This document shows positions 3,261 through 33,100 of a DNA stretch of 34,741 nucleotides, piece after piece. The notes under the pieces were generated by a model that saw only the letters and a program-made list of their open reading frames with translations, searched no databases and had not been told where the DNA came from. The translations under genes were made by a program, and so were the position numbers. The DNA lies in contig JAIKVL010000004.1 of NCBI GenBank assembly GCA_024685775.1, positions 134,486 to 169,226 of the forward strand, written 5' to 3'. The stretch's first letter is position 1; each line of letters begins with the position of its first letter. The stretch comes from Clostridia bacterium (GTDB lineage: Bacteria > Bacillota > Clostridia > Christensenellales > CAG-1252).

Positions 3261-4904
3261 TCAAGCAAGAGTGATCGGCAAATAGATATCCCCCTCGTAC
3301 TCGTTCGAAGAAGAATCCGAAGCGACGACGTGGAACGAGACGGCGACCATACCCGCGACCGCGACGGCGGATTCCGTCGTCGTGGTATTATCCTCGTCTT
3401 CGAGGATGACGACGAAATCGACGGAAGTCGCGTCCGCATACGCGACGACGAGATCGGATCCGTCGCTCAAACGGAAAGAGAAGACGGCGTTCGAGAAATC
3501 GAAGGTCTCCCCGACCGAATACTCTTTCTTGACGGAATCCTCGTTTTGGATGAAAAGATTGACGACGGTAAGGACGGGGCGTTCTTCGATCATTAAGACG
3601 AGATCGAGCGTCTGCTCTTTGTAAGAGATCGTGACGGTTACTTCGCCGGGATCACCCGAGATCACGCTCGGTTCGACCGAAATTCCGAGCGTTTCGCCGT
3701 AGGAGACGTAGCCCGACTCGCCGTTATTGTATTCGACGCCGAGCACCAAACCGCTGAGGTCGATCGTGTCTCCCGAATAATAAGTTTTCTTTACGGGATC
3801 GGAGAATATCCAAGCGTTCGTCGCCACGACCTTATTGACCGTTACGGGGATCTCCGCATAAGGCGTCTGCGTGCCGTGACAGGTGACGCGGACTTTTTTC
3901 GTCCCGACCGAAAGAGGATCCTTCGAAAAATCGAAATCCGAATCGTTTCCGTAGATCGAAAGGACCTGCCCGTTATTATAGGTTATCGTAAAGAGGACGG
4001 ATTGTTCATCCGGGTACATTGCGAAAGGCTCCCCCTCGAAAAAGACGAGGGATTTTTTCACGTCCGCTTGCAGATCCACCGGAATGACTTCCGTTATTCT
4101 GAGTTCGATCGTATTTTCCACCGTCCCGAAATCGGTCTCGACTTTGACCGTTACGATTTTATCCGTTCCGTCGAGCGGAGCAACGTAAGAATCCCCGTTC
4201 GCATGGAAAAATTGCGGAGTCAATTCGGAAAGCGGAGTTTCCGTCCCGTCGTTATAGACGACCTTTCCGTCCAGCCCGTCGCTCTCGAAGGTATCGCCCA
4301 CGAAATAACTTATCTTTCGGGGAAGCGAAGTGATCTGCAAGCGTTGCGCTTGCTTGCTTCGGACGGTAACTTCCAAATACGCGGTCACACCGCGATAACG
4401 GATCCCGACGCGCGTTACGGTAGTATTGAGTTTGGACGGGATGATCTCATATGCAGTCACGTCGGATTGCGTTCCGTTTTCGTAAGACGCCTTGACTTTC
4501 AACCCCGTCGGATCGAAGGTATCCCCGTCGAAATAATCGAGTTTTACCTCGGAAAAGTCGAGCGTTAAGCCGATCACCGCAGCGCGGACGACGGTTACGT
4601 TCATCGTCGCGGAAAAAGACTTCCCTTTTTCCTTATAGACGAGGACGAGCGTTTGCTCTCCGAGTTCCGCGGAATTCAAACCGCGAATTTCAAGATCTTT
4701 CATCGGGACGATCTTCGTCGAGCCATCGTCATAAGAGACAGCGATCTCGCCGCCCGCCAAATTGACGGTCGATCCCTGCGACACGGTCAAAGAAGTCGGT
4801 TCGGAGGAAATCGCGATCCCGACGGGTTTCGCGCCGCCGCAGGCGAAGAGCGCAAACGAGCAAAGGAAAAGCAAAAAACAAGCAAAAAAGATCTTCGTTT
4901 TCAT
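3261..4904 (-). CDS. Secreted lipoprotein with about six Big_3-like Ig domains
   Basis: 547-residue surface lipoprotein. The N-terminus MKTKIFFACFLLFLC is a typical type II signal peptide, and LFAC-GG gives a lipobox with the modified cysteine at about residue 22. The mature part is a string of roughly six domains of 75-90 residues. They resemble bacterial Ig-like Big_3 units, with recurring 'YFxGDTFDxxGLxVxxxYxNG' patterns (for example YFDGDTFDPTGLKV, YFVGDTFESDGL, YYSGDTIDLSGLVL, YSVGETFDFSNAVF). Such domains usually serve in adhesion or as spacers; no catalytic domain was seen. I chose ATG 4904 over an in-frame TTG at 4940 because it starts the signal peptide exactly and the TTG belongs to the -35 box. 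No Shine-Dalgarno is present, which suggests a leaderless mRNA. Confidence 0.85.
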   Translation of the reverse strand: MKTKIFFACFLLFLCSFALFACGGAKPVGIAISSEPTSLTVSQGSTVNLAGGEIAVSYDDGSTKIVPMKDLEIRGLNSAELGEQTLVLVYKEKGKSFSATMNVTVVRAAVIGLTLDFSEVKLDYFDGDTFDPTGLKVKASYENGTQSDVTAYEIIPSKLNTTVTRVGIRYRGVTAYLEVTVRSKQAQRLQITSLPRKISYFVGDTFESDGLDGKVVYNDGTETPLSELTPQFFHANGDSYVAPLDGTDKIVTVKVETDFGTVENTIELRITEVIPVDLQADVKKSLVFFEGEPFAMYPDEQSVLFTITYNNGQVLSIYGNDSDFDFSKDPLSVGTKKVRVTCHGTQTPYAEIPVTVNKVVATNAWIFSDPVKKTYYSGDTIDLSGLVLGVEYNNGESGYVSYGETLGISVEPSVISGDPGEVTVTISYKEQTLDLVLMIEERPVLTVVNLFIQNEDSVKKEYSVGETFDFSNAVFSFRLSDGSDLVVAYADATSVDFVVILEDEDNTTTTESAVAVAGMVAVSFHVVASDSSSNEYEGDIYLPITLA

Positions 4905-4911
4905 AAAGTAT

Positions 4912-4940
4912 ATTATACTCTTTTTCGGCGAAAGAGTCAA
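4912..4940 (-). promoter_or_regulatory. Near-consensus promoter abutting the lipoprotein start codon
   Basis: On the minus strand, TTGACT (4940-4935), a 17-bp spacer and TATAAT (4917-4912) are followed by only seven bases before the ATG at 4904. The expected transcription start therefore falls at, or within two bases of, the start codon. Confidence 0.8.
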
Positions 4941-5046: not shown

Positions 5047-5075
5047 TTGACAGCTAATTATCGCGGAATTATAAT
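5047..5075 (+). promoter_or_regulatory. Perfect-consensus sigma-A promoter of the phosphoglycerate mutase fusion
   Basis: TTGACA (5047-5052), a 17-bp spacer and TATAAT (5070-5075) match consensus completely. The predicted start near 5082 leaves a leader of about 10 nt that consists almost only of the ribosome-binding site (GAGGTG, 5082-5087). Strong constitutive expression is expected. Confidence 0.85.
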
Positions 5076-5091
5076 AAGCACGAGGTGAATT

Positions 5092-8013
5092 ATGAAATAC
5101 GTAGTATTTTTAGGTGATGGAATGGCGGATACTCCCGTCGAAGCGCTCGGCGGAAAAACGCCCCTTATGGTCGCGGATAAGCCGAATATCGATTCGCTCG
5201 CCGCAAAAAGCGAGCTCGGAACGGCGAAAACCGTGCCGGACGGAATGAAACCCGGAAGCGACACGGCGAACCTTTCCGTTTTGGGTTACGACCCGAGGAC
5301 CTGCTACTCCGGGCGCTCTCCTTTGGAAGCTCTGAGCATGGGGATCTATATGGAAAAGGACGATCTCGCGATCCGCTGCAACCTCGTTACCTTGTCTTCG
5401 GAAGAAGAAGCCTACGAGGATAAGACGATGATCGATTACAGCGCCGGCGAAATCTCGACCGAAGAAGCGCGCGAATTGATCGCATCCGTCGAATCCGAGC
5501 TCGGAACGGACGCGCTCGCGTTTTATGCGGGTCTCAGCTATCGTCATTGTCTGATCGTGCATCACGCGGAGCCCGCGGAAGAATTGACCCCGCCGCACGA
5601 CATCACGGGAAAGCCCGTCGCGGAGTATCTCCCCACCGGCAAACTCGGCGAACTCTTCCTCGATCTTCAAAAAAAATCGTATGAGATTTTGAAAGATCAC
5701 CCGATCAATCTCGCCCGCATCGAGCAGGGAAAGAATCCCGCGAACTCGATTTGGCTTTGGGGCGAAGGAACCAAGCCCGCCCTTCCCGACTTCAAAGAAA
5801 AGAACGGCGTTTCGGGCGCGGTCATCAGCGCGGTCGACCTCTTGAAAGGGATCGGCAAAGGCGCGAATATGAAAGTCATCGAAGTCGAAGGCGCGACGGG
5901 AAATATCGACACCGATTTCGCCGCGAAAGGCAAAGCCGCGATCGAAGCGTTCAAGAGCGGCGTGGATTACGTCTATATTCACGTCGAAGCGCCCGACGAA
6001 TCCGGGCACCAAGGCAACCTCGAAGATAAGATCAAATCCATCGAAAAGATCGACGCGGACATCGTCGGACCCGTCGTCTCGTATTTAAAAGAAAGCGGCG
6101 AACCCTTCCGCGCGCTCGTCTGCCCCGATCACCCGACTCCGCTCGCGACGCGCACGCACTCGCCCGAACCGATCCCCTATTTGCTCTATAAGAGCGACGC
6201 GGAAACGGACAGCGGCGTCACGACCTACGACGAAGAGACCGCGAAAAGCACGGGGATCTACGAGGAATACGCATTCAAACTCATCGACCGCCTGCTCGCT
6301 CCCGCAGAAGAGCCCTCGAACGCTTTGACGCCCGACCTCGTTACGGACGGCGAAGAGATCATCAGCGAAAAGGTCGCGGAAGAAAGCGAAAGTTCGGACG
6401 AGCCCGCGGAGGAAAGCGCGGAAGAACCCGAAAAAGAAGAAAATGAAGAAGTGAAAGCGGAAGAAAACGCGGACGCTCCCGAAGATCAAAAACCGAAAAA
6501 GAAAGGCGGCTTCGGCGCGTTCTTCAAAAAGCATCTCGGGATATTCATCGCGATCATCGCGCTTATCGTCGTAGCGGGCGGTTTGACGGCGGGTCACTTT
6601 ATCGCGACTTATCATATCGCGATGATCCGCTCTTCGAAAGACCTCAGCGAAGCTTTATCCAAAAAGCAGATCACGACCCTCGCCTTCAAAAAGGACGTGA
6701 CGATCGAAGGCGATCTCCTTTTGGATCGCCCCGTCGATTTCGATCTCGGCAAACGCACCTTGACCGTAAATGGCACCCTTTCCGTTTCCGTCGGAAAAGA
6801 CGTCTCGATCGGGACGAAGAAAAACGGCAAATACGGAAAAGGCGGCATGATCAAAGCCACCGCTTTCCAAGCGGTCGGATCCAAGACGCTCCGCCTTTAT
6901 TCCGATCTTTACGCAGATAACGCGACGATCGCGGCGAACGAATTCGTCTGCGCGGGTTCTCTCCTTTGGGGGCAATTCGACGTTTCGTCGCAGGAAATGA
7001 CCCTGTGCGGCTCCTCCGAAGGCGACTTGATCCTTTCCGCAGACACGACTCTTTCGGTTTACGGTTCGGCAAAAACTTCGATCGTGGGCGGCAAGACGGT
7101 CTCCGTCTTCAAAGGCGCGGAAGCCTATGAAATCAAGGACGCCGCGGTTTGCTACGTTTACGAGGGTTCGAACGTTTCAAGCGTAAAGAACGCGGGCGAA
7201 TATTATTTCGTCAAAAAGCTCGCGAAACCCGAAAACATCTCCGTCCTGCAAGAAGGGGACGATTTCTACTGCTATATTTCCGAAGTCATCGACGCGAAGG
7301 CGTTTAACGTCTCGATCAACGGAAAGGAAGGTCCCGTCGTCCAAACGAACGGCGGCCCCGTCAAATTCAAGCTCGAAGGGCTCGTTCCGGGCAAGCAAAC
7401 GCTTTCCGTCGTCGCGACCGCGGCGAACGATCCCCGCTTTACGGACAGCGACGCGGCGTCTTATTCCTTTAATTTCTCGACCAAGCTTTCTTCCCCGACT
7501 TTAAGCGTTTCGGAAGAAGAAGGCGTCGTCTATCTGACGATCGGCGCGGTGAAGTACGCCGAACAGTACGAGTATTATATCGACGGCGCGAAGTACGTCA
7601 CGCCGATGACCGATTTGAAAATCGACATCACGGAAAAGGTCGCGCAAGGCGGCGTCCATATTATCGAAGGGATCGCGAAGAGCAACGATAAATTCTTTAC
7701 CGAGAGCAACAAAGTCATGACGAGCCACGTTACCTACGTTACCCTTTCCGCGCCCGAAATCAGCGGGACGAAGGATGACGAGACCGTCACGTTCGTTTGG
7801 GAGAAGATCGAAGGCGTCACGGATTATTTCGTAACGTACGGCGACGACGCGGTCTACCTCAAAGGCGACTTTATATCCTTTGCTTATAACGAGACCTCGG
7901 CGTTCACGATCAAAGCGATCGGAGGCGGCTACTATCTGTCGAGTGAGACCAAGACGATCTCCGCGCAAGAGATCAAAGCGTTTCCCGCGCCGACGGTCAC
8001 AATCGTTTCCTGA
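5092..8013 (+). CDS. Archaeal-type phosphoglycerate mutase (ApgM/proposed homoserine kinase family) fused to TM helix and extracytoplasmic domains
   Basis: 973 residues, about 2.4 times the usual ~400 of the family. Residues 1-400 form an alkaline-phosphatase-fold enzyme: FLGDGMAD (metal site D9), PGSDTANLSVLGYDP (expected nucleophile S56), HVEAPDESGHQG near 300 and CPDHPTPLATRTHSPEP near 344 (metal Asp/His). The domain appears intact. It could interconvert 3- and 2-phosphoglycerate, or be the related 'proposed homoserine kinase'; no threonine genes are nearby. Residues ~402-466 are an acidic Glu-rich linker, 467-481 a basic KKKGGFGAFFKKH segment, and 482-504 one transmembrane helix. The ~470 remaining residues look extracytoplasmic: short beta repeats (to ~705), then about three fibronectin-III-like units. 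With no signal peptide and positive charge before the helix, the enzyme should face the cytoplasm. The reading frame is unbroken across the junction. Confidence 0.87.
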   Translation: MKYVVFLGDGMADTPVEALGGKTPLMVADKPNIDSLAAKSELGTAKTVPDGMKPGSDTANLSVLGYDPRTCYSGRSPLEALSMGIYMEKDDLAIRCNLVTLSSEEEAYEDKTMIDYSAGEISTEEARELIASVESELGTDALAFYAGLSYRHCLIVHHAEPAEELTPPHDITGKPVAEYLPTGKLGELFLDLQKKSYEILKDHPINLARIEQGKNPANSIWLWGEGTKPALPDFKEKNGVSGAVISAVDLLKGIGKGANMKVIEVEGATGNIDTDFAAKGKAAIEAFKSGVDYVYIHVEAPDESGHQGNLEDKIKSIEKIDADIVGPVVSYLKESGEPFRALVCPDHPTPLATRTHSPEPIPYLLYKSDAETDSGVTTYDEETAKSTGIYEEYAFKLIDRLLAPAEEPSNALTPDLVTDGEEIISEKVAEESESSDEPAEESAEEPEKEENEEVKAEENADAPEDQKPKKKGGFGAFFKKHLGIFIAIIALIVVAGGLTAGHFIATYHIAMIRSSKDLSEALSKKQITTLAFKKDVTIEGDLLLDRPVDFDLGKRTLTVNGTLSVSVGKDVSIGTKKNGKYGKGGMIKATAFQAVGSKTLRLYSDLYADNATIAANEFVCAGSLLWGQFDVSSQEMTLCGSSEGDLILSADTTLSVYGSAKTSIVGGKTVSVFKGAEAYEIKDAAVCYVYEGSNVSSVKNAGEYYFVKKLAKPENISVLQEGDDFYCYISEVIDAKAFNVSINGKEGPVVQTNGGPVKFKLEGLVPGKQTLSVVATAANDPRFTDSDAASYSFNFSTKLSSPTLSVSEEEGVVYLTIGAVKYAEQYEYYIDGAKYVTPMTDLKIDITEKVAQGGVHIIEGIAKSNDKFFTESNKVMTSHVTYVTLSAPEISGTKDDETVTFVWEKIEGVTDYFVTYGDDAVYLKGDFISFAYNETSAFTIKAIGGGYYLSSETKTISAQEIKAFPAPTVTIVS

Positions 8014-8027
8014 GTTTTCCGAGATTT

Positions 8028-8876
8028 ATGGCAGATAAAGTAGTTTTAACGATTCAAGACGTTTCCTGCTTCGGTCAGTGTTCGCTGACCGTTGCTCTTC
8101 CCATTCTTTCCGCAATGGGGCTGGAAACGGCGATCCTGCCTTCCGCCGTCTTATCGACGCACACGGGCGGTTTTTCGGGTTACACCTTTCGCGATTTGAC
8201 CGAAGACCTTCCCGCCATCAAAGAGCATTGGGCAAAAGAGAACGTCGCGTTCGACGCATTTTACACCGGGTATATCGGAAGTAAAAAGCAACTTGCTTAC
8301 ATCAAAGACATCGTTAAGGACAGAAGAAAACCGGACGCAAAATTCATCGTCGATCCCGTTATGGCGGATAACGGAAAGTTTTATTCCGGATTCGACGAAG
8401 ACTTCGCGCGCGAAATGAAGAAATTCATCAAAGGCGCGGACGTGATCCTCCCGAATCTCAGCGAAGCCGCGATCCTTCTCGGAAAGCCTTATATCGCGGA
8501 GGGCGGATTCAGCGAGTTTCTTACCGAAGTTATTTTGCGCTCGCTTTCCGAGATCAGCGGCGGCGACGTCGTCCTGACGGGCGTTTCCTTCGACCCGAAA
8601 CTTCTCGGCGTGGCGGTCTACAACAGAAAGAAAAAGAAATTCTCCTATTCTTTCGGCGAACGGATCGAAGGCAATTTCCACGGCACGGGCGATATCTTCG
8701 CTTCGACCTTTACCGGCGCATACATCCGCGGATTCCCCATTGAGAAAGCGGCGGAGATCGCCGTCGACTTCACCTTACGAGCGATCAAAGAAACGCTTCC
8801 CGAAAGAAAGGAGCATTGGTACGGCGTAAAATTCGAAAAGGCGCTCCCCTACCTCATAAACGAGATCAACCGATAA
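8028..8876 (+). CDS. pdxY: Pyridoxal/pyridoxamine kinase (PdxY/PdxK-like)
   Basis: 282-residue cytoplasmic ribokinase-superfamily enzyme that phosphorylates B6 vitamers to feed pyridoxal 5'-phosphate salvage. Visible features are IQDVSCFGQCSLTVALPIL at the N-terminus (substrate-binding start typical of pyridoxal kinases), VDPVMADNGKFY (residues ~105-116), ILPNLSEAAILLG (~138-150) and the C-terminal FHGTGDIFAS, whose GTGD holds the anion hole and catalytic Asp. Length is standard. It follows the fused mutase by 14 bp and is probably co-transcribed, though only a weak ribosome-binding site (CCGAG) precedes the ATG. A strong terminator follows. Choice between the names pdxY and pdxK is by convention only. 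Confidence 0.88.
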   Translation: MADKVVLTIQDVSCFGQCSLTVALPILSAMGLETAILPSAVLSTHTGGFSGYTFRDLTEDLPAIKEHWAKENVAFDAFYTGYIGSKKQLAYIKDIVKDRRKPDAKFIVDPVMADNGKFYSGFDEDFAREMKKFIKGADVILPNLSEAAILLGKPYIAEGGFSEFLTEVILRSLSEISGGDVVLTGVSFDPKLLGVAVYNRKKKKFSYSFGERIEGNFHGTGDIFASTFTGAYIRGFPIEKAAEIAVDFTLRAIKETLPERKEHWYGVKFEKALPYLINEINR

Positions 8877-17478: not shown

Positions 17479-18150
17479 TTATTCGCCGTCGATCTCGGAT
17501 GCGTCGTCGACCAAAAGGTCATCCGCTCCGCTTTCGGAAAGCGCGTCCGACGAGTTTTCACCCGTCGCAGCGAAGCTTTTCGCGGTTTTATTCGCCGATT
17601 TCGATTTCTTCTTATCTTCTTTCGCGCGTTTTTTCTTTTCCTTATCCGAGAGCGTTTCCTCTTTCGTATCTTCTTTTTCCTCTACGGAGAGTTCATCCGA
17701 AGATCCCTCTTCCGCAGGATTATCCAAGGCGTCTTCTTCTGAGATCGACTCGCCGCCTTGGGGCGCCGTATCCGCATCGGCGGGAACCTCCGCAGATTCC
17801 GCTTCGGTTTCGCCTTCACTTTCTCCGCTCGTCCCTTCTCCTTCGGTCTTCGAGCCTTCCGCGGGGTTTTCTCCCTCCGCAACGGGTTCGATTCCCATCC
17901 TTGCGATTACGAGCTTTTCCGTTTCGTCCGCGGGAGATCCGGCTTCGTGCGTTTCCGCAGGCGCATCTCCGCCTTCGGTATCGGTCTTTTTCGAAGACTT
18001 ATCTTTCTTCGGCGCTTTTTCCTTCTTCGGCTTCTTCGGTTTCTTGGGCTTAAACACTCTTCTCTTACTCGCCTTATGGAGAGCGACGAGGATCACGATC
18101 GTGATGATCGCCATCACGAGGACCGAGCCGCCGTAGACGAGGATCTTACC
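17479..18150 (-). other. Membrane anchor and cytoplasmic tail of the giant protein
   Basis: A single hydrophobic helix (about 18150-18076) is followed by KRRVFKPKKPKKPKK and then about 200 residues dominated by Glu, Asp, Ser, Lys and Ala, with no Cys or aromatic core. By the positive-inside rule the tail lies in the cytoplasm. Low complexity suggests disorder. A basic block KEKKKRAKEDKKKSK-like segment recurs near 17610. Confidence 0.75.
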
Positions 18151-21100
18151 CGTCGTCGTCTTCAAGAAGGATTTTTGGTTAATGACAAGTTTCGCGTCGG
18201 AAAGACCTTCTTTGGTTACGTTGCCGACGAACGCCGCACCCGTCGCCGTGGATTTATCGAACAGGGATTCGCCCGAGTAGGCGTTCACGATATCGATCTT
18301 GATATTCGAATACTCGTAACTGCCGAGGCTTTCGCCCTCCGTTCTGTCGCCAGTAACGTAGATCTCGAAAGTTCCGTCCGCGATCTCGAAATAATTCGGG
18401 ATCGCCGCGTAATCGTCGTAGGGGTCTTCCGCGGAGAGGACGTACGCGATATTGGGATCGCGGTCGCCGATCGTCTTGGACGTGGGAACGAGTTTGATGA
18501 CGATCGAGACGGGAGCGACAGAAACGTTCGCGTTAAACGTCGCTTTAACGTTATTATTCGCGGCGATCAAGCCGAGTTCGTCCGCCGTCTTTTTACCTGC
18601 GGAAGGAACGAGTCTGGAAAGCTTATAATAAGCGATCTTCAACTCGGAAGCGATGTAATCCGACGCTTCTTTATCCGTGCTGCCCACGGGGATTTTCAGG
18701 AAGTTCGCGCCTTTTTCGATCGAGAATTTCAAGGCGGCTTTGTTATCGCCGTAATAGATCGTGTTTTGCGCTTCGAGATCCGTACGCTCGACGACCGCGG
18801 GCGTAAACGCGCCTTGGCTATCGAAATAGCCGACTTCCGCTTTGACGGTGACCGCCGCCGGATTGATCGTAAAATCCCCGGGGATCACGGAGATGAAGTA
18901 GTTTTCCGTGATCGGCGCGTTTTCGGCTTTGGTCGCCTTCAACGAGAAAGTGCCGTTGATCTTATAGCTTCCGACGCTGACCGCGTTTTGCACCGAGTAC
19001 TTCTCGGCGACGACCTTGACTTTATCCTTATCCTTTTCAAGCAGACCTTCGTGCTTATAGGTGACGAGCGCTTCTCTGAAATCGCTAACCGCGTTATAGG
19101 TCTTGGTAAAGTCGGAGATGCGGATCGTTAGATATTTCTTCGTAACGATGATCATGCGTTGTCCGCTCTGCATCGTGATGCCCGAAATGCTGTCCGCAGC
19201 GTCTTGCGTGGTGAAGTCCGCGCTGAACACGGCGTCGTATTCGCCGACGTTCAAAATCGTGCTTTCATCGTAACCGACGAGCGCGTTTACGCCGAGATCC
19301 GCAAGCGTCGCGTTTCTCTTCTCGCTTCCGAACATCGCGAAATAGAGATCGGCAAGCGAAATGCTTCCGTCGCCGACGATCGGCGTGTATTTGATCGTCG
19401 AGATCGGCGTTCCGTAGATTACCGAAGTCTTATTCGGTTTCAAGCGGATCGCGACCTTCTTGATCTCGTAGAAGTTGCCGCCCTCTTTCGCCGAGGTCAG
19501 ATCGTAGCGAGCGGTCACGTCCGTCTTGTCGTCCATAACTTTATAGACGAGCGGATATTTGCCGACGCGTTCGCCCGGTTCTCTCGAAACGACGAGCGTA
19601 TGCGTCTTTTCGACGAAGGATTGCCCTTGCGTCAAAGACGCGTAGATGGTTTCCGTTCTCTTTCCGATAAACTTGACGTTTCTTTCCTCTTCGGCGGAAA
19701 CGGTCATCTTCTTCGGCGTGACCTTCAAGACTCCGTCCGCTTTGAGAACGGCTTTTCTGACGCCGTCCACGAGGGCGTATCCGTCCAAACTCGCGACCGA
19801 ATAATTCTTGTTCCGATCGGAGAACAGGCAAGCGAGATCGTAGCGAACGGTCTCCGACGGGAGAAGGATCTTGCCCTCGTTATAAGTGATCGCGTCGAAA
19901 TAGAGCTCGTCGCCTTCTTTCATTCCCGTATGCGAGCAACCGCCGCCGCACTCGCTTCCCGAGCAGACGTGGTATTTCGGCTTGTAATCCGTGTCGCCGT
20001 ATTCGATTTCGTCCGGATCGAAGATGATCTTGACCTCGGTCGGGCGCACGATGTAGTACGCTTCCTGCCCCGTCATAACGACGTTATAGTTCTTCAAAGC
20101 GAGGCTGTCGCCGACGATGATGCGATAGGCGCCCGCATCGAAGACGTCCGCATTCTCGCGGGTCAGGATCTTGGACGCGACCGCTTCGTAGTTCGCGCGG
20201 TCTTGCGCAAGAAGCCCGCTCTTGACCGTCGGAACGAACGCGACGGGCGAAGAGAATTGCGAGAGATAATCGGTTTCGATCGAAGCGACTTCGAGTTCGA
20301 GCGTCGCGCGGCGAATGTTCGCGCGAATCAAACCGTCCTGCGTAGAGGTGATCTCGTTCCCGTCGAATGCGTAATCGAGATAGACGTACTTATGATCGCC
20401 GTTCGGATCGGTCGACACGAGTTTCGCTTTTCCGCTCACGACGACGACCTTTCCTTGCTCCGCGTTCGCGTCCTTAAACGCGAATTTGACGCCGTCCACG
20501 GAGACGTACGCCGCGTCGCCGCCCTTGAAGCCTTGGATCTGCATGCTGCCGGGGAGCAATTCCGCGTCGACCTTGCCGTCGTAGACTTTATCTTTGATCA
20601 CCAAGCTCTTGAAGGTCAGGATCGCGGGCGTGATCTCCAAGCCGGAGGTCGCGTTGCAAAGGACTTTCGAGCCGGCGTAGACCTTATAGCTGACGAGATA
20701 CGAACCGGCGTGGAAAGGCTTATCGTTGACGAGCGGAGGCGTGGCGCCCAGCGCGGAATAGTTGGAGACGACGGTATAGCCTGCGTTTTGCGCGCGGGTC
20801 GTGACCGAATTCAAAGCCGAGGTCGAGGCGGTGATATTCGCGCCGCTGTACGTCGCCGAGATCCACTCCATCGGAACGTAGGTCAGTTCGGCGTTCAAGA
20901 CGATGTTGTAATGCCCCGTCGTCCAAGTGATCTCGTACTTCCAAGCGTCGGAAGAATTCCTCGTCGCGGTTTCGTGCGCGCTCGTAGAGGTCAAGCCCCA
21001 GAACATATACCCCGTTCCGATATTGCTGACTTTGACGGTGATCTTCGAACCGCTTCCTTCGAGTTCGTCCGCGAAATAGACGCCGAGACCCGAGAAGACC

Positions 21101-24100
21101 GGCATATTCGCCGCGCCGTTTTTGAGGATCTCCTCGCTGACGCCCGTGTAATTCACCGACACGAGATAGCGAAGCGCGAAGACGGCGGAGACGGGCGCCG
21201 CGAGCGAATATTCATTCTTCGCCCTGCCCGATTCGTCCTTATTGACGATCGTCCCGTTCTTATCTTTCCAAGCGCGAAGCGCGTAGTTGCCTTGCGCGGA
21301 AGCCGCGTAGACGATCGAATCGCCGAACGTCACTTCGATCGTTCCGTCGCCGTAAACGTTCATATAAGAAGCGATCGTTTCTTCGTGGACCGCGGAAGCG
21401 TTCGTTTGATACGTCACGACCGTGCAAAGGGTGAATCCGTCGCCGCGGAGCGCGTTACCGGAAAGCGTCGCGCTCTTGAACGCGACCGCGATCTTTTCCG
21501 CGGTTCCGCCTTCGCCGAGGGTAATGAAGCCCGCGTTAAAGGTCCCGCCCGTGACGGTGATCGTGTTCGAGCCGGAAAGCGCGCCTTTGAAACCGAGGAG
21601 AGGCAGGATGGTCGCGCCGTTAACGGCGAAAGATTCCGCGATGGCGACGGAGCGATCGGCGAGCTTGGTCGGAGAAACTTCGGTCGCGCGCGAGAGTTTA
21701 TTGAAGTCGCTTTCGCTTCGGACGACCGCGGGCGCATAGACCGCTTCTTTCGCCTTTTCGGAAATCGTCACGATCGACGCGAAATAGAACGCCTCGTTAT
21801 CCGATCCCGTAAAGACGGGAGTCAAACCGTCAAAGGAGGGAGTCAACACCGCTCCTTTCTCGTAATAGACGAAGGAGTACGATCCGCTCGACGCGGTAAG
21901 CGAGCTACCGTAGGTCTTATCGAAGGTCATAACGATCGCGCCGCTCGAACGATAGGACGGGATGGTCATTCCGCTGTCCGACAAGCAAAGGACGACGTTA
22001 TTCATCGTCGCGCCCGCCGTAGAGAGATCGACGTATCCTTTTCGGAGATAGACGACGCCGTTGCGGAAGACCCCGCCTTGGGATCTCGAAGTAAAGAGAG
22101 AGCCTTCGCCCATGGCTTTCATCGAGAGAGAATGCCCGCCGAGGTCGAGGATGATCCCGTCGAAATAGACGGACGGGAGATTTCTCTTGACTTCGAGATC
22201 GGACGCAAGCGTGATCACGCTGCCGGGAGCAAGCCCGCCTTCCGCGGTCAGATAACCGAGATAGACTAGTTCGTCCTCGGAAGAGATTTGAGAAATGCTC
22301 TTGACGGAGATCTTCGCGCCGGACGCGCTTTCGGGAGCGGTGTAGAATCCGGTCGCATAGTTATACGCGCCGGGGAAGACGACTTTCCCGTCGAAGTCAT
22401 ACAAGCAGACGAACGATCCGACGAGCGGCGTGAGCTCGAAGCTGACTTTCGTCCCGATATTGGTCTTTTGATAGGTCGCGCCGATAACGGTGTCGGAATC
22501 CACGCGCAATTCGTTGACGCCGACAAGGCTTCCTTCCTCGACCGCTTTTTCCGCGCCGCCGGTCACGAACCAGCAGTTCTTCATCGCGCCGCCGTTCGCC
22601 AAGCAAAGCGCCGCGCCGCCCGAGAAGGCGTCCGTATTCAAAGGCGAAAGGACGATGACCGCGCTCATCAAACCGCGGTTGATCTTAACGAGGCAAGCGT
22701 CGCCTTTAACGCTGACGCCGCTTTCGAATTCGAACACGAGATCTTTCAGCTCGCCGTACAAAGTGTGGATAAAGGGATTCGCTTGGATCTCGTAAAGGAT
22801 GACGCTGTCCGCTCCGCCGACGATGCTTCCTTTGAACGGACGCTCCGCGCTGCCGATCGTCCGGATCTCGGTATCGACGGTAAATCCTCCGTCTTTGACG
22901 AAGAAGGTCTCGTCGAGGAATTCGAATTCGCCCGCGACCGCCGTAGCAAGACGGCTGAGATCGTCCGCGGAAGACAAGACGCGATTGACGAAGTTCAACA
23001 TATACGCGTTGCCCGCGGAGGAAGCAAGCGAGACGCGCTTCTCGGAAATGACCTGCCCCGAGACTTCGCCCTGCTCGCCGTACCAACCCGCGAAGACTTG
23101 TTCGTCCGTGCTTGCCGCCGTGGCGACGATCCTTTCGCCGAATTCATACTTCACGTCGCTGAGTCCGTTTCCGAAGATCACCGAGTAGCGATCGCTGTAT
23201 GCGGAAGTCGACTTGAACGCTTCGTACAGCGACGCGCTCGAAGTTTCGAAATAGACGTTCGTCGCTTGGACGGGAGCGCCGACGGAAAGCACGTCGCGAT
23301 TTTCGACGAACACGACTTTTTCAAGCGTGACGGTTTGATCACCGTCGAAGATCGACACGCCCGCGGAAAGCGCCGCGAGATTGACGCGCGCATTTTTGAT
23401 CGTTCCCGCAAAGAGTCCGAGCGCGCTTCCGTCGAAGCCCGCAAGGAAAGTCAGAGAATGACCCGCGCCGTCCAAAACGCCTTTGAAGGCGCGCGACTTA
23501 AAGCCTGCGAGCGGAGCGGGAACGGCTACGTCCGCGCCGAGCGTAAACGTCTCGTCCGCGCCGTCGTAACCGAGCAGGATGACGTCGGAAAGGACGGTGA
23601 ACTTATACGTCGTGTCGATGACCGTGGAAATGAATTCCGCGGTATAAAGCCCCGCCGCCGCGGAGACTGTGTTCATTTCGGGATTTGCGGAAAGGATCGC
23701 ACCTTCTTTCGTCCAGCCGATGAAGATCATATCGCCTTCCGAGGCTGCGGTAAGCATCATATCGCCTTCGCCGCCCTGCTCGATCGAACCGACGCCGTTG
23801 ATGCGGACGACCGAATACGCTGCCGCGCCTTGCGCCAAAGCGTAATCGACGCGCGTCACGACCCAGAGGTTGATCGCCTCGCCCGAGCCTTCCTTCATAA
23901 ACAGACCGCCCGAAACGACCGCGCCGTTTTCGAGATAGACGACCGCGTTTTCAATCCTACCGCCGTTATTCGCTGCGAGATAAGCGTTCGTCTCTTCTTT
24001 GTCGAGGCGCAATCCGATGTTACGGATCGTAGCGGAAGTCTGACCGAAGAGACCGCCCGTCAAGGTCGTTCCGCCGACCGTGACGACGTGATGTCCGCCC

Positions 24101-27100
24101 TCGATCGTGACGGAGGAAGAAAGCGCCGCGCCGCTGCCGATCGCGTCAAAGGAACCGCCCGGAAGGAAAGCGTCCGCGGGGAGATCGAAATCGGAAACGA
24201 GGGTAAAGTTCGCGGAAGCGAAGGTATACGCGCCGCCGTTCACCGCTTGGGAGAACGCCGCGAGTTCCGCGCCGCTGCCGATCGTCTTTCTCGAAGAAAG
24301 CATCGCTTTGACGCCCGCGACGCGCCTCGAAACCACCTCGCTGCCGTTCATATCAAAGGTCGTGTACGAAAGTTCGGAACCCGAATAATTTACGTTTTTG
24401 AGGTGCGCGCCCGTTCCCGCCGCGCAAGCGCCGTTCTTGATCTCCGCAAAGGTCAGGAACGCGTCCGTTACCGCGACTTCGGTCGCGAAAGCGATCTTAC
24501 CCGCGAGGACATCCTCTTTCGAGGGACAAGACAAAACCAATCCTTCTTCATAGGTCATCGAGTTCACGAGGTCGCAGGAAGAGACCGAAGAGAGTCGATC
24601 GGTATAGACCCAAACGTTATTGACTTTTTCCGCCTCGCGAACGAGGTTGGAACCGATCGCGCTGTCCGTTCCGCCGAGCACGCAATCGACGATCTTGATC
24701 AAGCTGTTCGAAACGGCGTTGACGTTATTCCCGACGAAGCCGCCGCCGATGCCGCCCGTGATCGTCCCGTTCGTAACTTCGATATATGCGTTATCGAGAT
24801 AGCCGAGGTTCAAGCCGACGCCGACCGCGGAGAACGCGCTGAGAGAGGCTTCAACCGTGATCGCGCCTTCGAAAGAAACCGAGATTACGCGAACGCCTTT
24901 ATAGTTTTCGCCCGCGATACCGCCCGAATAGCCGCTCGCCGCTCCCGAAGAGGAGATCTTCGCCGAGGACAGGATCGAAAGATCGCTGTCTCGGAAGTAC
25001 CCGTTATTGATTCCGACGACGCCGCCCGCGACGCAGGTATTGTCGCTTCCCTTCGCGAGGATCTCGCCGCCGAGCGAAATCGAAACGTCCGAGATCGTCC
25101 CGAAATTATAACCGACGAGTCCGCCGACCGTGTTACCGATCAACTTCGCGTTTTCGGAAAGCGTAAACGTGCAATCCTTGATATCGCCCTGCGCGTTGGA
25201 AACGAGCGCGCCCGAATAGATCGCGCTTTCGGAACCGAACGTTCCCTCGTCAAGGACGTAATTGAGGTTTTTGATCAAGCTTCCGACCCCGGTGAAACCG
25301 AACAAGCCGACGTACTCCGCGCCGGGGATCGAACCGCCCTTCATCGTCAGGGTGAAATTCTTTCCGTCGAAGACGTTGTTGAACGAGTAATCCATCGTTC
25401 CGATCGTTTCTTTGAGATCGCCCGCCTCGACGGTAACGTCGTTCATCAAAGTAAAGACTATATCTTCACCCGACAGCCCGCTGCTGACGGAAGCCGCCAT
25501 ATCCGCAAGATCCGCAGCCGAGCGGATCTCGGTGTTTACAAAGACGACCATTACGCTCTTGTTTTGGATGGCCGCCTTCGGAAGGAAGGTGTTTTTCCCT
25601 TCGCCGACGTTACCCGTCTGCGCGTCGACTTGAACCCCGGAGCCGAGATACCAGCCGTCGAGCTGAGAACCGTTATCGTCCGTCATATTCGTAAACATAA
25701 CGCTTTCCGCCGTCGTGTCGATCGAGGCTTTGACCGTTCCGTTTCCTTTGACGTTCAAACTGTTGATGGTCTTTGCACCGTAGCCTGCGGTTTGTACGGA
25801 GCGATTATAAGTAACGAGCCAGCCGTTTATAACGGTAATACCGTCGAGATAACCCGCCATACCGCCCGCGTAGGAGGAAGACAGGCTTTCGCCGAATAGG
25901 AACGCGACGTTATGGTTGATCGAAGCTCTCGTGTATCCGACGAAAGCACCCGAGCGCGCTCCGCCTTCGGTGAGCGCGTTGGTTTCGACCTGCGCGTCGT
26001 TTTGAACGTAGACGATCAAATAAGACGCACTTCCGGAATAGTTGTTTCCGATCGCGCCGCCCGCATTCGCGATGCCGCCCGATTTCTTCGAAAGCGCGGA
26101 GATCTTTCCAAAGAGGAAAACGTTCGCTTCGAGATCGTACTCGTGAAGGACGAAACTTCCTCCGTCCTTAACGTAGCGCGTCGCTTTGGGCAAAATGCCG
26201 AGCGATTTCCAGCCCGAGTAATCGCCCGTACCTTCGATCACTCCGTAGTTGATTCCCGCGATGCCGCCCGCATTGATCGCGTTACCCTCGCGGCTTTCCG
26301 CGCGGATCTCACCTTTTACGATGACGAGGCAGTCTTTGATCTCGCCGTCGTTTCTGCCCGCGATACCGCCCGCGGAGTACCCGAGGACTTTACCGCTTTG
26401 AGCGATCTCGACGTAGCAGCGTTCGATCAATCCGTCATTCACCGCGGCGACCGTCCCGTAGACGTGATCGGAAGAACTCGTAATCTCGCCGATCGTCCCG
26501 TTTACCGTGACGCGGAGATCGCGGATATCGCCTTTGTTATATCCGAAGACGCCGCCGACCGAGTACCCTTCGCGCAACGTGATCGAATAGTAGGAATTAT
26601 CCAGTTTTCCGGAGAAGGTTCCCTTAAAGGGATGCGCCTCCGTTCCGATCGGGAGATAGTTTCCGGTCATGATCGAGGGGATCTCGATATTCGCGCCGAG
26701 AGTAAAGGTCAAGGTGTCGAAGGAATAACCGCCGATATTGACGTCCTCCGCGACGGCGATGAGCTCTTCCGCGCTCTCGATCGTCGTCTTAATGACCGCG
26801 ACTTCGTAGCCCGCGGCGGATAAGTCGATCGGAGCGACGAGATAACCGTGCGCGCCGCTCGTCAGGCTGCCGCCCGCAAGCATCGCCTCGGAGATCTGCC
26901 AACTCTTCTCGAAGGACTTGAACCAACCCGAAACGGGGATATCGGAAGTCGAGGTGAATTTTACGCGATAATCGTTATGCGCGACGTCCTTAAAGGACGC
27001 GTCCACCGTTCCGATACCGACGATCTTCATCGTGTTGACCGAAGTGTCGCCCGTCGTCGCGCTGCCGACGGAAAGGATCAGATCGGAAGCGTCCACCAAG

Positions 27101-30100
27101 CCCCAAACGTTCTTTACGAGGTTCGTGTTATCGTAACCGACGACGAGACCGCTGACGCCTTTCAGAGTGCGAATGTTCGCGCCGTTCGATATGACGACGA
27201 CGTTCTCGATCTGCCCGTTATTATATGCGATCGCGCCTGCGTAAGAAGCGTTGATTGCGCCCATTTCGACTTGCGCGGCGGTATATTCGTCGTGACCGAG
27301 CGTCCCTTTAAGAAGGATTCGGAGATTTTTGATCGTGCCTTCTTCCGCGACGTAGCCGAAGATACCCGCGTGCGTCCCGCCGATCACGGCTTCGGGCGCG
27401 AGAATGATCGAATGTCCTTTTCCGTCGAAGGTCCCGTTAACGCCGTTTTCCACCGTGCCGATCGAGAAGAACTCGTCGTTCTCGCCGATCGTGACGTCGG
27501 ATTTCAGCGTAAAGGTCAGTTTGTAGAAATTATAGCCTTCGTTGATATTCTCCGCGTATTGTTTGAGATCCGCGAGAGAATTGATCTCGCTGTTCAGGAA
27601 GCTGACGTTATAACCGACGCGTTTCAGATTCGCGTTCGGTTCGTAAGATCCGCCCGTCGCCCCGATGGACGCGGCTTTATCGTTCGTAAAGGAATTGAGA
27701 TCGTACCAATAAGACGTTCCGCTGTAAGTAAAGTGATACCTCGTAGCGTCGTTGGGCTGACGAATGACTCCGACCTGCCCCGCCGCGACGACCATAATGT
27801 TATTGACGCCGCCTTGGTTACTGCCGCTATCCGTGAAATTCGAAGCGGAGACGAAGCCCGCGTTGAACGTCAATTCCTCGGCGTTCAAGTCGTAATTCAT
27901 CTTGCTGTTATAGGAGATCGCCCAGCAGTTGGTCGCGACGTTGCCCGCGTTTCTCGGCAAATAACCGAACGTCCTGCCGACGCCGACCGAACCGTAAAGC
28001 GAGGCTTTCTTATCGAGAATGACGACGTTATTCTTGTATTCGCCGCCGAGAGCGTACGCCGCGAGGACGCCCGCGTAGATCGTGCGGGTCGTGTTTTCGC
28101 CGGTATCGTAACCGATCTTACATTTCGCGTTTACGGTCAGATTCTTGATCCTCGCCTGCGCGCCGACCCTGCCGAAAAGACCGGCGTAACGCGCGTCGAT
28201 GACGAGACCTTCGGGCATCGTGATCGTGTGACCTTTGCCGTCGAATCCGCCGATGAAATCGCGCTCGACGTAGTTGACGTAAGAAGTTCCCGCGCCCGTG
28301 ATGACTTCGCCGCCGATCGGATTGAACCCGATCTCGTTCAAAGTAATGTCTTTCGTAAGTTCATAAGTAATGCCGCGATAGTTTCTACCGTAACGGACGT
28401 TCATCGAAGTGCGTTCGAGGTCTTCGACGCTCGAAATGTACTTATTGATAAAGACCGCGAGCATATCGGGGCTGACCGTGTCGCTCGGGCGAACCGTCCA
28501 AACGTACAAAGACGCGCTCGCCGCTCCGTCGTGGATCGGGGTAACGACTTCATCCGTCACGTTCGTGTTGTCGATATAGCCGTAGAAACCGTCGCGACCG
28601 TCTTCGTCCACTTCGGTCGAATCGAAGGTGATCTTGGAACCGTCCGATTGGATCTCGATCCGCATCGAACCGACGCCGACCTGCTGCATCGACCTACCTT
28701 CGCCTTTGGTCGCGCGATTCGCAAGATAATAGTCGGCAAGTCCGACGGGGTTCTTAACGGTCGCATTCTCGGCGAGAACGAGCCAAGCGTTTACGAGAGT
28801 ATACCCCGCTTCCGCTCTGCCCGCGATGCCGCCCGTCGAGGGTAAGCCTTGGGTCGTATAGACGATCGTATCCGCGCGGAGAGAGACGACGACGTTTCTG
28901 AGTTCGCCGGCGAGATAACCGACCGCCATACCCGCGTAGAGCGTCGTGGTATCGCCGACTTTGACGTTTTCTCCCGCCGCGACGATATGGAGGTTTCGGA
29001 CGAGACCGCCGTTTCCGATATAACCGAAGACGCCCGCATAATCGCGCTTGATCATGCGACCCGTAACGCTCAGCGTGTAGCCGTTTCCGTCGAAGAGACC
29101 CGTGAAGGGGCGATCCGCCGTTCCTGCCGATTCGCAGGAATCGAAATTGACCGAAATATTATTGAGAAGGGTGAATTTCGCGCCTTGGTCGCCGTAGGTA
29201 TTGATGTTTTTCGCGAAACGGACGAAATCGTCTTCGTCTCGAATCGAAAGATTGATAAAGGAAAGCACGATTTTAACGTTCGAAACGTTTAAGGCGGGAG
29301 TGATCGAGACGTCTCTGTCCGAATCGGAAGCGTTATAGGTCAAAGCGCCGTACATCGATTCGTAGCCGGGGAGCGAATTCACGAGTTCCGCGGAACGAAT
29401 GTCGGAATACCAACCGCCGAATTCCTTGAAGAACTCCTCGCATCTCTTCTTGAACGCGCTGTTGCCCGTCTTCCCGTCGGGGACGGAATACTTTACGCGA
29501 ATGGGAGAGGTCGTTCCGAATTCGTAGTCTTGCAAGAAGGAGACCTGCGTCAAGCCGGAGCCGAGGACGGCGATCTCGTTTACGCCGAAGTTATCCGCGC
29601 CGGAGCCGTTTCCGATGAGGGGCGTGCGCCCGTTCAGGACGCTGATCCAAGAATTGATCGCGTCGTTTTCTTCCTGCGCCGCGTCGTAATAACCGATGAA
29701 AGAGCCCGCATATCTCTTCGCGGAGTTGAAGATCAAGCTCGAACTCAGATTAACGAAGACGTTGCGGATCTCCGCGCCGTTTCTTCCGACGAGCGCGCCG
29801 ATCTCGAAGGTGTTGACGCCGCCGATCGTGACGTCCTCGGAAATATCGAGGATGAAGTTGCGGATCACGGCGTTCTTCGTCGTGTAGCCGAAGAGACCGG
29901 TATATTCCATACCGCTGATCGCGCTGCCCGAAGCGAAGGTGATCTTATGATAGCCGCCGTCGAAGATCGCGTCGAACGGATGATCTCCGTTTCCGATCGG
30001 AGTCAAAACGGTCAGGTTGTTCAGTTGGATATCGTTTTCGACGATAAACAAAACGCCCTTATAGTAGTTATGTCCGTTGATCAGGTTCGCGAGCCCGACG

Positions 30101-33100
30101 AGCGAAGTCGCGTTCGTGATATGCAGATCGACGTAGCTCAGATGGATGTTTTGATTTACGACGTTGTTGGCGGGCGAATAGGTCGATTGATTCAAAAGTC
30201 CTTCGCTCTTTTCGGTGATTCTGCCCTTTCCTTCGTCGTCCCAATCCGAGACGTTTTTATACCAGCCTTTCGCGCCTTTGATCAAAGAACGGAAAGTAAA
30301 CATATTTTTTTCGAAATCGAGCGTGACTTGGAGAAGAGTCTCTTCCATAACGCGGATCGCGTTGAAGCCGCTGTCCGGAGTCGGGCAAGTCGGCGTGTCG
30401 GTCGAGTTACTGATCTGGACCCACGCGTTCGATCCCGCGCCGACGTGCGCTTGCGCGGCGGCAAGTCCCGTCGTCGTTCCGCGGAAAATTCCGTAACAAG
30501 TCAAAGCGGAATGCCGGACGGTACCGGTCATGACTGCGGCAAAGCCGCCCGCGTATTGCGCCTTGACGACGCCGTTCTCCCCGTTTGCCGCGCTGCCGAT
30601 ATCTCCGCGGATCGTAACGAGGGTGGAAGCGATCTCGCCCGCGTTGACCGCGGTCACCGCGCCTGCTTTCGAAGCGGTGACGAAGCATCCGTTCGCGCTT
30701 TCCGCCGTGCAGTACGAGAGAGAACCTTGGTTTTCGCCAACGAGGACCGCCGCGGAATCCGAAGCGATCGCGGGAGCGTGGATCTCGGTCAGGACGGAGA
30801 AGATCTGCCCGCTCTCTTTATTGGAGCCGACCGCGCCGCCGAAAATCTTCGTCGTCCTCGTCCCCGTCGTAAAGGCGGAAATCAAAACTTCGACGCTCGA
30901 ACCGACGGTCGGCGAAGCGTAGATATACGATTTTACGAGGGATTCGTGATCGCTTGTTACGTCGCCGATCGCGCCTTCGTTCTCGCCCGCGATACCGCCG
31001 AACGCGGTCTTTCCGAAATAATTCGCTTTTTTGTTGATCGAGACGAAACCGCTTCGGATCGTTCCGAGGTTCTTACCCGCGAGTCCGCCGACCGTACTGC
31101 CGGCGAGCATTCCGTCCACCGTCACGATCGGGAAGATCATGACGCCGGAATTCGCGTTCGTTCCGACGATGCCACCCGCCGTCGTGCCGAAAATCACGCC
31201 GCCGAGATCGCCGCCCGCTTTGATCGTAACGATGACGGAGTTGGAAGATTCGCTTCCGACGACGCCTTCGTTCAAACCGACCGCACCGCCGACGTTCTTG
31301 CCGAGGATCGCGCCGTAGCCGTCCTTGCCGATGTAGTTTGCGTACTCGAAGGTGATATTTGCGGAAGAGATGACGCCGCCGTTTTTGCCGGCGATCGCGC
31401 CCGCCGTTCCGTTCTTATTCGCGAGATAACCGCGAACGTCCATCGTAACGCCCGAGATTGTACCGTAGTTGACGTTGGTCAAGAAACCGCGTTCCTTATT
31501 CGAACCGGATTCGGTAAGGTACGTTCCCGCTTGAACGACGATCTTCAAATTCTTGATCTGCGAATAGTAATTCCCGTCGTTGTTTCCGAGGACGCCGACC
31601 AGCGCGTGCATACTGCTTGCGGAATCCAGCGTAATCGTGCAACCGTTTCCGTTCAAGCTTCCGCGGAAAGGCTTTTCCTCGCTTGCGCCGAGCGCCTTAT
31701 TCGCCGTGGCGGCGTCGATAACGAAAGAATTCGCGACCTGATAACGGACGTACAATCTGAAATCGTTCGCGACCTTATCCGCGATGTACTTGTAATCGTC
31801 TTGATTTTGAAGAACGCTCTTTTGGAAGCAAGCGTAAAAATCCCTGCCCGTAAATCCGATCGGAGCCGCGTAGACCGTCCCCGTGTTTCCTTCCGGGACG
31901 GTGACGAGGGTACCGGTCTCGAAATTCGAAACGTAATCGTAGAAATCGGGATCGTTCGCGTTCATCGCGGGCGAGGTCGAGTACTTCGTCGAATTGAAGC
32001 GGATCTGACCGCCCTTCGCGTCGTTTCCGACGACGTACTTGACGATCGAGACTTTGATCTCTCCCTTTCCGTATTGGGTCATCGAGTTCGCGCTCAAATA
32101 GTTCGTCCCGTTGACGAGGACGGATTTCGCGGTGTCGGGATTGGCTTCGCCGTTTTCGCGATAGATCTCGATCGGAGTGCCGAACGCGGGATCGTAGAGG
32201 TTTTCCTTGCTCGGATTCAGCGAGCGGAACAAGCACCACAGCGTGTCGACGTAGGTGGATTCGTTTCTGCCGATGATAAACGCGCGGAATTTATTGAGGG
32301 AAGCTTTGCTGCCGCTGTTTCCGTTCAAAGTGGTTCCCGCGTTTGTGACGCAAGAGACGACGGAGTAGACCGCCGAGCCCGCGCCGTTGATCCCGACCAC
32401 GCCGCCGAGGACGTACTTCGAGTTATTGGAGTAAAGTCCCATATGGGACGCGGTGATCTTAAAGTCCGCGATCGCGTTTTTGAGGATCGGGACGGAGGCT
32501 TCGCTCTGATCGTTCTTGCCGGCGATTCCTCCCGCGACGACCTCTTTGTTCGCGTCGGAAGAAACGGGGTTCAAGCCGCCCTCTCCGGTGACGATCGTTT
32601 CGACGTTTTGAACGAGGTTGCGATTCTCGCCGACGATACCGCCGATCACCTCGCCCGTTAAGGTCGCCGAGAGTTCCGCATAGACCTTTACGGACGCGGA
32701 ATCCTGCCCGATCGTTCCGTTATTGATCGCGGCGACCGCGCCGGCGTACTTGACTTTGGTGCTTCCCGTTTGAGACGTGACCTTGACGCGGACGTTCTTG
32801 ACGGACGCCTGATCGCCCAGACAGCCGAACAGACCCGCGTAAGAGCTGGATCCGTCGACGCCGTTCAAAGAAATGCTGAGACCGTTTCCGTCGAACGCGC
32901 CTTGGAAGGGATATTCGAGGTTGCCGATCGGGACGTAGTTGCTCGGGAGCGTAATATTCGTGCCGAGGGTAAAGGTAATGTTTTTATAATCTCTTCCTTG
33001 GATCGAGGAAGAAGCGATCTTCATAACGTCCGCGGCGAGGAAAAGTTGAAGCGGGACGACGCGAACGATGTAAAGCTGACCGCTGACGTTTTGGTTTTCC

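Follow-up and report, generated by a model that had tools for sequence, protein, structure and literature searches.

The genome of a Clostridia bacterium (CAG-1252; assembly GCA_024685775.1) contains a gene in which an enzyme domain, most likely of the threonine pathway, continues in the same reading frame into a membrane helix and a large, predicted extracytoplasmic region. The gene was analysed within a window of 34,741 nt (contig JAIKVL010000004.1, positions 134,486–169,226 of the forward strand), to which all coordinates below refer. On comparing it with its relatives, we propose, with a probability of roughly 70%, that a conserved operon pair has repeatedly been condensed into a membrane-tethered enzyme. 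The parts of the protein are of known kinds, but their combination was not found in the literature searched, which yielded no description of a membrane-fused TIGR02535 or ThrB2 protein.

The fused gene occupies positions 5092–8013 (+) and runs from ATG to TGA as a single frame of 973 codons without internal stops, as the first-pass annotation had described. The encoded 973-aa protein consists, in this order, of the enzyme domain (aa 1–402), an acidic linker, a transmembrane helix at about aa 482–504, a β-solenoid at about aa 509–711 and FN3-like domains. The linker, which had also been recognised as acidic before, comprises 79 residues (aa 403–481; 6298–6534, +) with a net charge of −17 and a lysine-rich juxtamembrane end. 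Just past the enzyme domain, it contains the motif LTPDLVTDGEEI (6325–6360, +), which is kept within the otherwise variable linker of the window genus with a consensus of roughly G[IL][TSD]P-[LVM][VI]T..G.E. We rejected a separate translation of the membrane half from within the linker because the window linker contains no in-frame start codon with a Shine-Dalgarno-like site and the linkers of the relatives contain no conserved one. One polypeptide is thus the simple reading, and the fusion protein presumably remains in one piece in the cell.

The enzyme domain (5092–6297, +) was assigned to the TIGR02535 or ThrB2 type of the ApgM superfamily by profile matches and key residues. It matched model TIGR02535 with 519 bits (cut-off 446.3) over positions 1–396 of 397 and model NF003242, which carries the NCBI name cofactor-independent phosphoglycerate mutase, with 530 bits (cut-off 426); matches to the Pfam families PF10143 and PF01676 were also obtained. 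Residues D9, S56, D302, H306, D346, H347 and H356 are present, invariant across an alignment of 11 sequences and matched in the structure 2zkt; they correspond to the nucleophile and metal ligands of the superfamily. With a full-length match over the cut-off and the superfamily residues intact, the domain is as complete as the first-pass annotation had judged it to be. It resembles other ThrB2 proteins in fitting the full model and in being found where ThrB is missing, but differs from the usual members, which are frames of about 400 aa without a membrane anchor. The archaeal ApgM proteins (2zkt, 3idd and 3kd8) belong to the same sequence family and have the metal and nucleophile residues in common with the window domain, but they have no membrane or external part, and the domain reached only 300 bits with the equivalog model for archaeal-type ApgM, NF003104, below its cut-off of 489.

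The membrane half contains a lone hydrophobic segment at about aa 482–504 (6535–6603, +), and a transmembrane helix was found in 30 of the 30 sequences examined. The segment is preceded by KKKGGFGAFFKKH, a positive flank from which an orientation with the N-terminus inside and the C-terminus outside is predicted, so that the enzyme would lie on the inner face of the membrane. Beyond the helix, about 470 β-rich residues follow. We modelled the C-terminal part of 490 residues with AlphaFold2 from two sequences only, the window protein and one relative, and obtained a mean pLDDT of 72 for a model comprising the transmembrane helix, a β-solenoid and FN3 domains. The solenoid (aa 509–711; 6616–7224, +) reached a pLDDT of 93.6 when modelled alone. 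It is followed by two FN3-like domains at about aa 708–887 (7213–7752, +; pLDDT about 60–84) and a probable third one (7753–8010, +), which was modelled with low confidence (pLDDT under 50), as were the last 80 residues of the protein. Thus, the single helix, the β-rich and FN3-like character of the C-terminal part and the predicted position of the enzyme on the inner face, all of which had been proposed from the letters of the gene, agree with hydropathy, charge distribution and model.

The best structural neighbour of the solenoid is the binding region of the SRRP of L. reuteri (5nxk; Z 16.6, rmsd 3.1, 192 aligned residues), followed in order by the HxuA secretion domain, alginate lyases and pectate lyases. 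The SRRP domain (5nxk/5ny0; Z 16.6 and 15.4) is the closest solved β-solenoid and likewise a cell-surface domain, but the match is one of fold only, at 13–14% identity, and implies no adhesin role for the window protein, which is moreover held by a membrane helix. The FN3 pair matched that of tenascin/fibronectin (1qr4) with Z 12.2 and an rmsd of 4.6 over 159 aligned residues. Because all these matches are at the level of the fold, they do not give a function. Sequence searches with the C-terminal half yielded just weak fn3, MtxA_IG-like and bactofilin matches in Pfam and nothing stronger than weak FN3 receptors in the PDB. Of 23 sequences related to the C-terminal region, 5 gave the weak Pfam fn3 matches, and those to bactofilin (PF04519; best E 6e-4) in 2 of the 23, the window protein being unmatched by this family. 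A separate role as a surface-binding or wall-facing structure is probable for the external region.

The gene is present in 11 of the 12 other genomes of the window genus. Rather than two separate genes in all relatives, we found the intact fusion (958–1016 aa, 55–57% identity) in seven of these genomes (G002, G003, G004, G006, G007, G008 and G011), with linkers that vary in length between the species and a frame that is open throughout. The gene is cut by contig ends in G009, G010 and G012, and G005, a 79% complete genome, gave no match. In G001, the gene appeared to be split, but we rejected this interpretation because the interruption is a scaffold gap, a run of Ns inside the linker. Outside the genus, the fusion was also detected in 11 genomes from three genera of another family (f6). 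We labelled the 57 rows of a tree of the enzyme domain as fused or separate and counted four changes of this label; well-supported branches force four, with a bootstrap range of 4–4. Starting from an ancestor with separate genes, the tree would imply four fusions, or at least two if later splits in f6 are allowed. Across 398 genomes sampled from the phylum, all other TIGR02535 frames among the matches listed are shorter than 600 aa, and only the window frame exceeds this length in the 98 genomes with matches. The architecture is not a one-off: it is found repeatedly within the genus and formed on more than one occasion from an adjacent gene pair.

Both halves of the fusion also occur as neighbouring genes, with the gene for the membrane half directly 3′ of thrB2. 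In a sister genus (g3, genome G019), the enzyme gene and a gene for a membrane protein of 711 aa overlap by ATGA, and the latter protein consists of an acidic tail, a transmembrane helix, a solenoid and an FN3 region. The pair likewise occurs as separate genes in families f6 and f8, with gaps of −37 to +23 bp. Of 30 such pairs inspected, 29 have a gap that is not a multiple of three and hence genes in different frames, so that losing a stop codon would not have sufficed for a fusion; in the remaining pair (G309), the partner ORF is shortened and the apparent gap is 447 bp. In another genus of the same family as the window genus (g2), the membrane protein occurs alone (690–828 aa) without thrB2, and its gene is flanked by dusB and genes for a YabN/MazG-type pyrophosphohydrolase and a SpoVB-like protein, which offer no functional clue. 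Conversely, when about 55 thrB2 loci were sampled in other families of the order, none had the partner gene downstream. The solitary module in g2 and these loci without it indicate that neither half needs the other. Outside families f1, f6 and f8, full-length homologues of the membrane protein were found in just two genomes of family f24. These homologues (L204 in G042 and L205 in G106) have 800–829 aa and lie outside the thrB2 operon, the one in G042 close to thrB2 but on the other strand; they represent a possible transfer or an older arrangement.

We explain these observations best by the condensation of two neighbouring operon genes, thrB2 and a gene for a single-pass membrane protein, into one polypeptide. 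The second ancestral gene would have coded for an acidic cytoplasmic tail, an external β-solenoid and an FN3 stalk, and the former acidic tail would now act as a flexible leash some 80 residues long. The enzyme would hang on the inner face of the membrane while the solenoid and FN3 domains project outside, and the likeliest consequence would be a fixed 1:1 ratio of enzyme to membrane protein and a membrane-localised enzyme. The sequences themselves provide the continuous frame in several species, the domain content, the adjacency of the genes in relatives and the repeated change between fused and separate; we infer the topology, the uncleaved state of the protein and the enzyme activity.

The main rival is a neutral fusion, in which two closely spaced genes of an operon happened to merge, each half works on its own, possibly once the linker has been cleaved, and the tethering serves no purpose. 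Such an origin is made conceivable by neighbouring genes that already overlap or nearly touch, and the occurrence of the membrane module alone in g2 and of most thrB2 genes of the order without it fits with independent halves. Given the frame mismatch in nearly all of the separate pairs, a mere stop loss would not fuse the genes, yet the tree records four changes of state; moreover, the fusion was retained through the whole genus, and the linker motif is conserved. We therefore regard neutral fusion as the less probable account, though one with a real share of the probability. It overlaps in part with the tethered-enzyme reading because both assume the same anatomy and differ only in whether there is a benefit. 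Beyond tethering as such, the membrane protein could be a working partner of ThrB2 that positions or regulates the enzyme in response to something external or to the envelope's state, with the fusions selected for this coupling. We consider this stronger version rather unlikely; if true, it would make ThrB2 a membrane-tethered and possibly outside-in regulated enzyme of amino acid biosynthesis.

Concerning the enzyme that would be tethered in this way, the genome itself, which is 97% complete, argues for a role in threonine synthesis. It encodes a homoserine dehydrogenase (Hom, 213 bits) and ThrC (256 bits), and no ThrB was found in it: the best match reached 31 bits and is a 287-aa frame that looks like a different GHMP kinase. 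The fused gene itself gave no match to TIGR00191, the model of the GHMP-type homoserine kinase ThrB. Throughout family f6, TIGR02535 was found over the cut-off in 44 of 46 genomes and ThrB in none of 45, which is the complementary pattern of occurrence described for ThrB2 and ThrB (PMC9026213). Genus g2 has no TIGR02535 protein over the cut-off, and a true ThrB was present in two of its genomes, in one frame with ThrC; in two others (G015 and G016), neither ThrB nor ThrC reached the cut-off. These single-frame proteins (L045 in G018 and L046 in G013) have 756–781 aa. Like the window protein, they are fusions at the homoserine kinase step, but they join two cytoplasmic enzymes of one pathway and contain a ThrB of the GHMP type. 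A TIGR02535 member of Bacteroides thetaiotaomicron, BT2402, is required for threonine prototrophy (PMC7311316). It failed, however, to complement E. coli lacking thrB (PMC7311316), so that the reaction assigned to TIGR02535 proteins, BT2402 included, is putative. On this basis, the enzyme domain is most likely a threonine-pathway enzyme and likely a homoserine kinase that supplies O-phosphohomoserine where ThrB is absent.

The fused enzyme might alternatively be a phosphoglycerate mutase that places a glycolytic step at the membrane, as its match over the cut-off of NF003242 and its similarity to the archaeal ApgM structures would allow. This is improbable, since a full-length GpmI (670 bits) is encoded in the same genome (G000:C29) and GpmI also occurs across the family, and since ThrB is absent although Hom and ThrC are present; we rejected a glycolytic role because of the GpmI in the same genome. 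Of the two labels offered by the first-pass annotation, that of a proposed homoserine kinase is therefore preferable to that of a central-metabolism enzyme. Another function, the phosphorylation of L-threonine for corrinoid side-chain synthesis, was proposed for Dehre_1608, a TIGR02535 gene of Dehalobacter restrictus (PMC4285132). That proposal relies on an operon with corrinoid genes, whereas the window gene has a pyridoxal-type kinase, a symporter and a Big_3 protein as neighbours and belongs to a genome in which ThrB is missing next to Hom and ThrC, which leaves this minor rival with very little probability. An assembly or sequencing artefact joining two genes might be suspected because the window stems from one assembly and the N gap of G001 falls exactly in the linker, but it has a negligible probability and was rejected, as the same open frame with differing linker lengths in seven other assemblies of the genus excludes a lost stop codon or an assembly error and the f6 genomes show the fusion independently; the compared assemblies thus show that the fusion is real.

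The fused gene is preceded by an exact sigma-70-type consensus promoter, TTGACA-N17-TATAAT (5047–5075, +), which was located by a pattern search and had already been reported as perfect. Three sites within one mismatch of this pattern were found in the whole window versus 0.02 expected by chance, and the exact pattern occurs 25 times in the genome versus 0 times for the reversed control pattern. A Shine-Dalgarno-like GAGGTG (5082–5087, +) follows the −10 box after a few bases, and about 16 bases separate this box from the ATG, an arrangement common to the same-genus relatives. Among those with readable upstream DNA, the layout of spacing, −10 box, Shine-Dalgarno site and ATG recurs in G001–G004, G006–G009 and G011; G010 is an exception in that its assigned start is upstream of the conserved one. 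With its conserved layout, the site is a plausible strong promoter. Given the presumed transcription start, the transcript would begin at the Shine-Dalgarno site, with a leader as short as about 10 nt. An Rfam search of the window revealed no riboswitch or T-box match upstream of the fused gene.

A pyridoxamine-kinase-type gene (8028–8876, +) starts 14 bp 3′ of the fused gene, is also found directly downstream in G002 and may share a transcript with the fusion. On the other side lies a divergent gene for a protein with three Big_3 Ig-like domains (3261–4940, −); its near-consensus promoter (4912–4940, −) is upstream of, and divergent from, that of the fusion. Half of the window is taken up by an open frame of 5729 aa (17479–34668, −), rich in G, A, V, S and T, with weak MBG_2/YDG matches and an acidic, lysine-rich C-terminal end; from its composition, it probably codes for a giant surface protein. 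At 764–1920 (−), two single-domain chromate transporter genes lie next to each other and share 4 bp.

In many bacteria, threonine synthesis has a gap that TIGR02535 proteins fill, and a conserved operon partner that was repeatedly fused to them offers a new and concrete lead, in that the enzyme may be active at the membrane or jointly with this partner. Should TIGR02535 activity turn out to require the partner, this might be relevant to the lack of complementation of E. coli thrB. For these uncultured Clostridia, the fusion would be a clear example of how a biosynthetic enzyme can become part of a membrane protein exposed at the surface.
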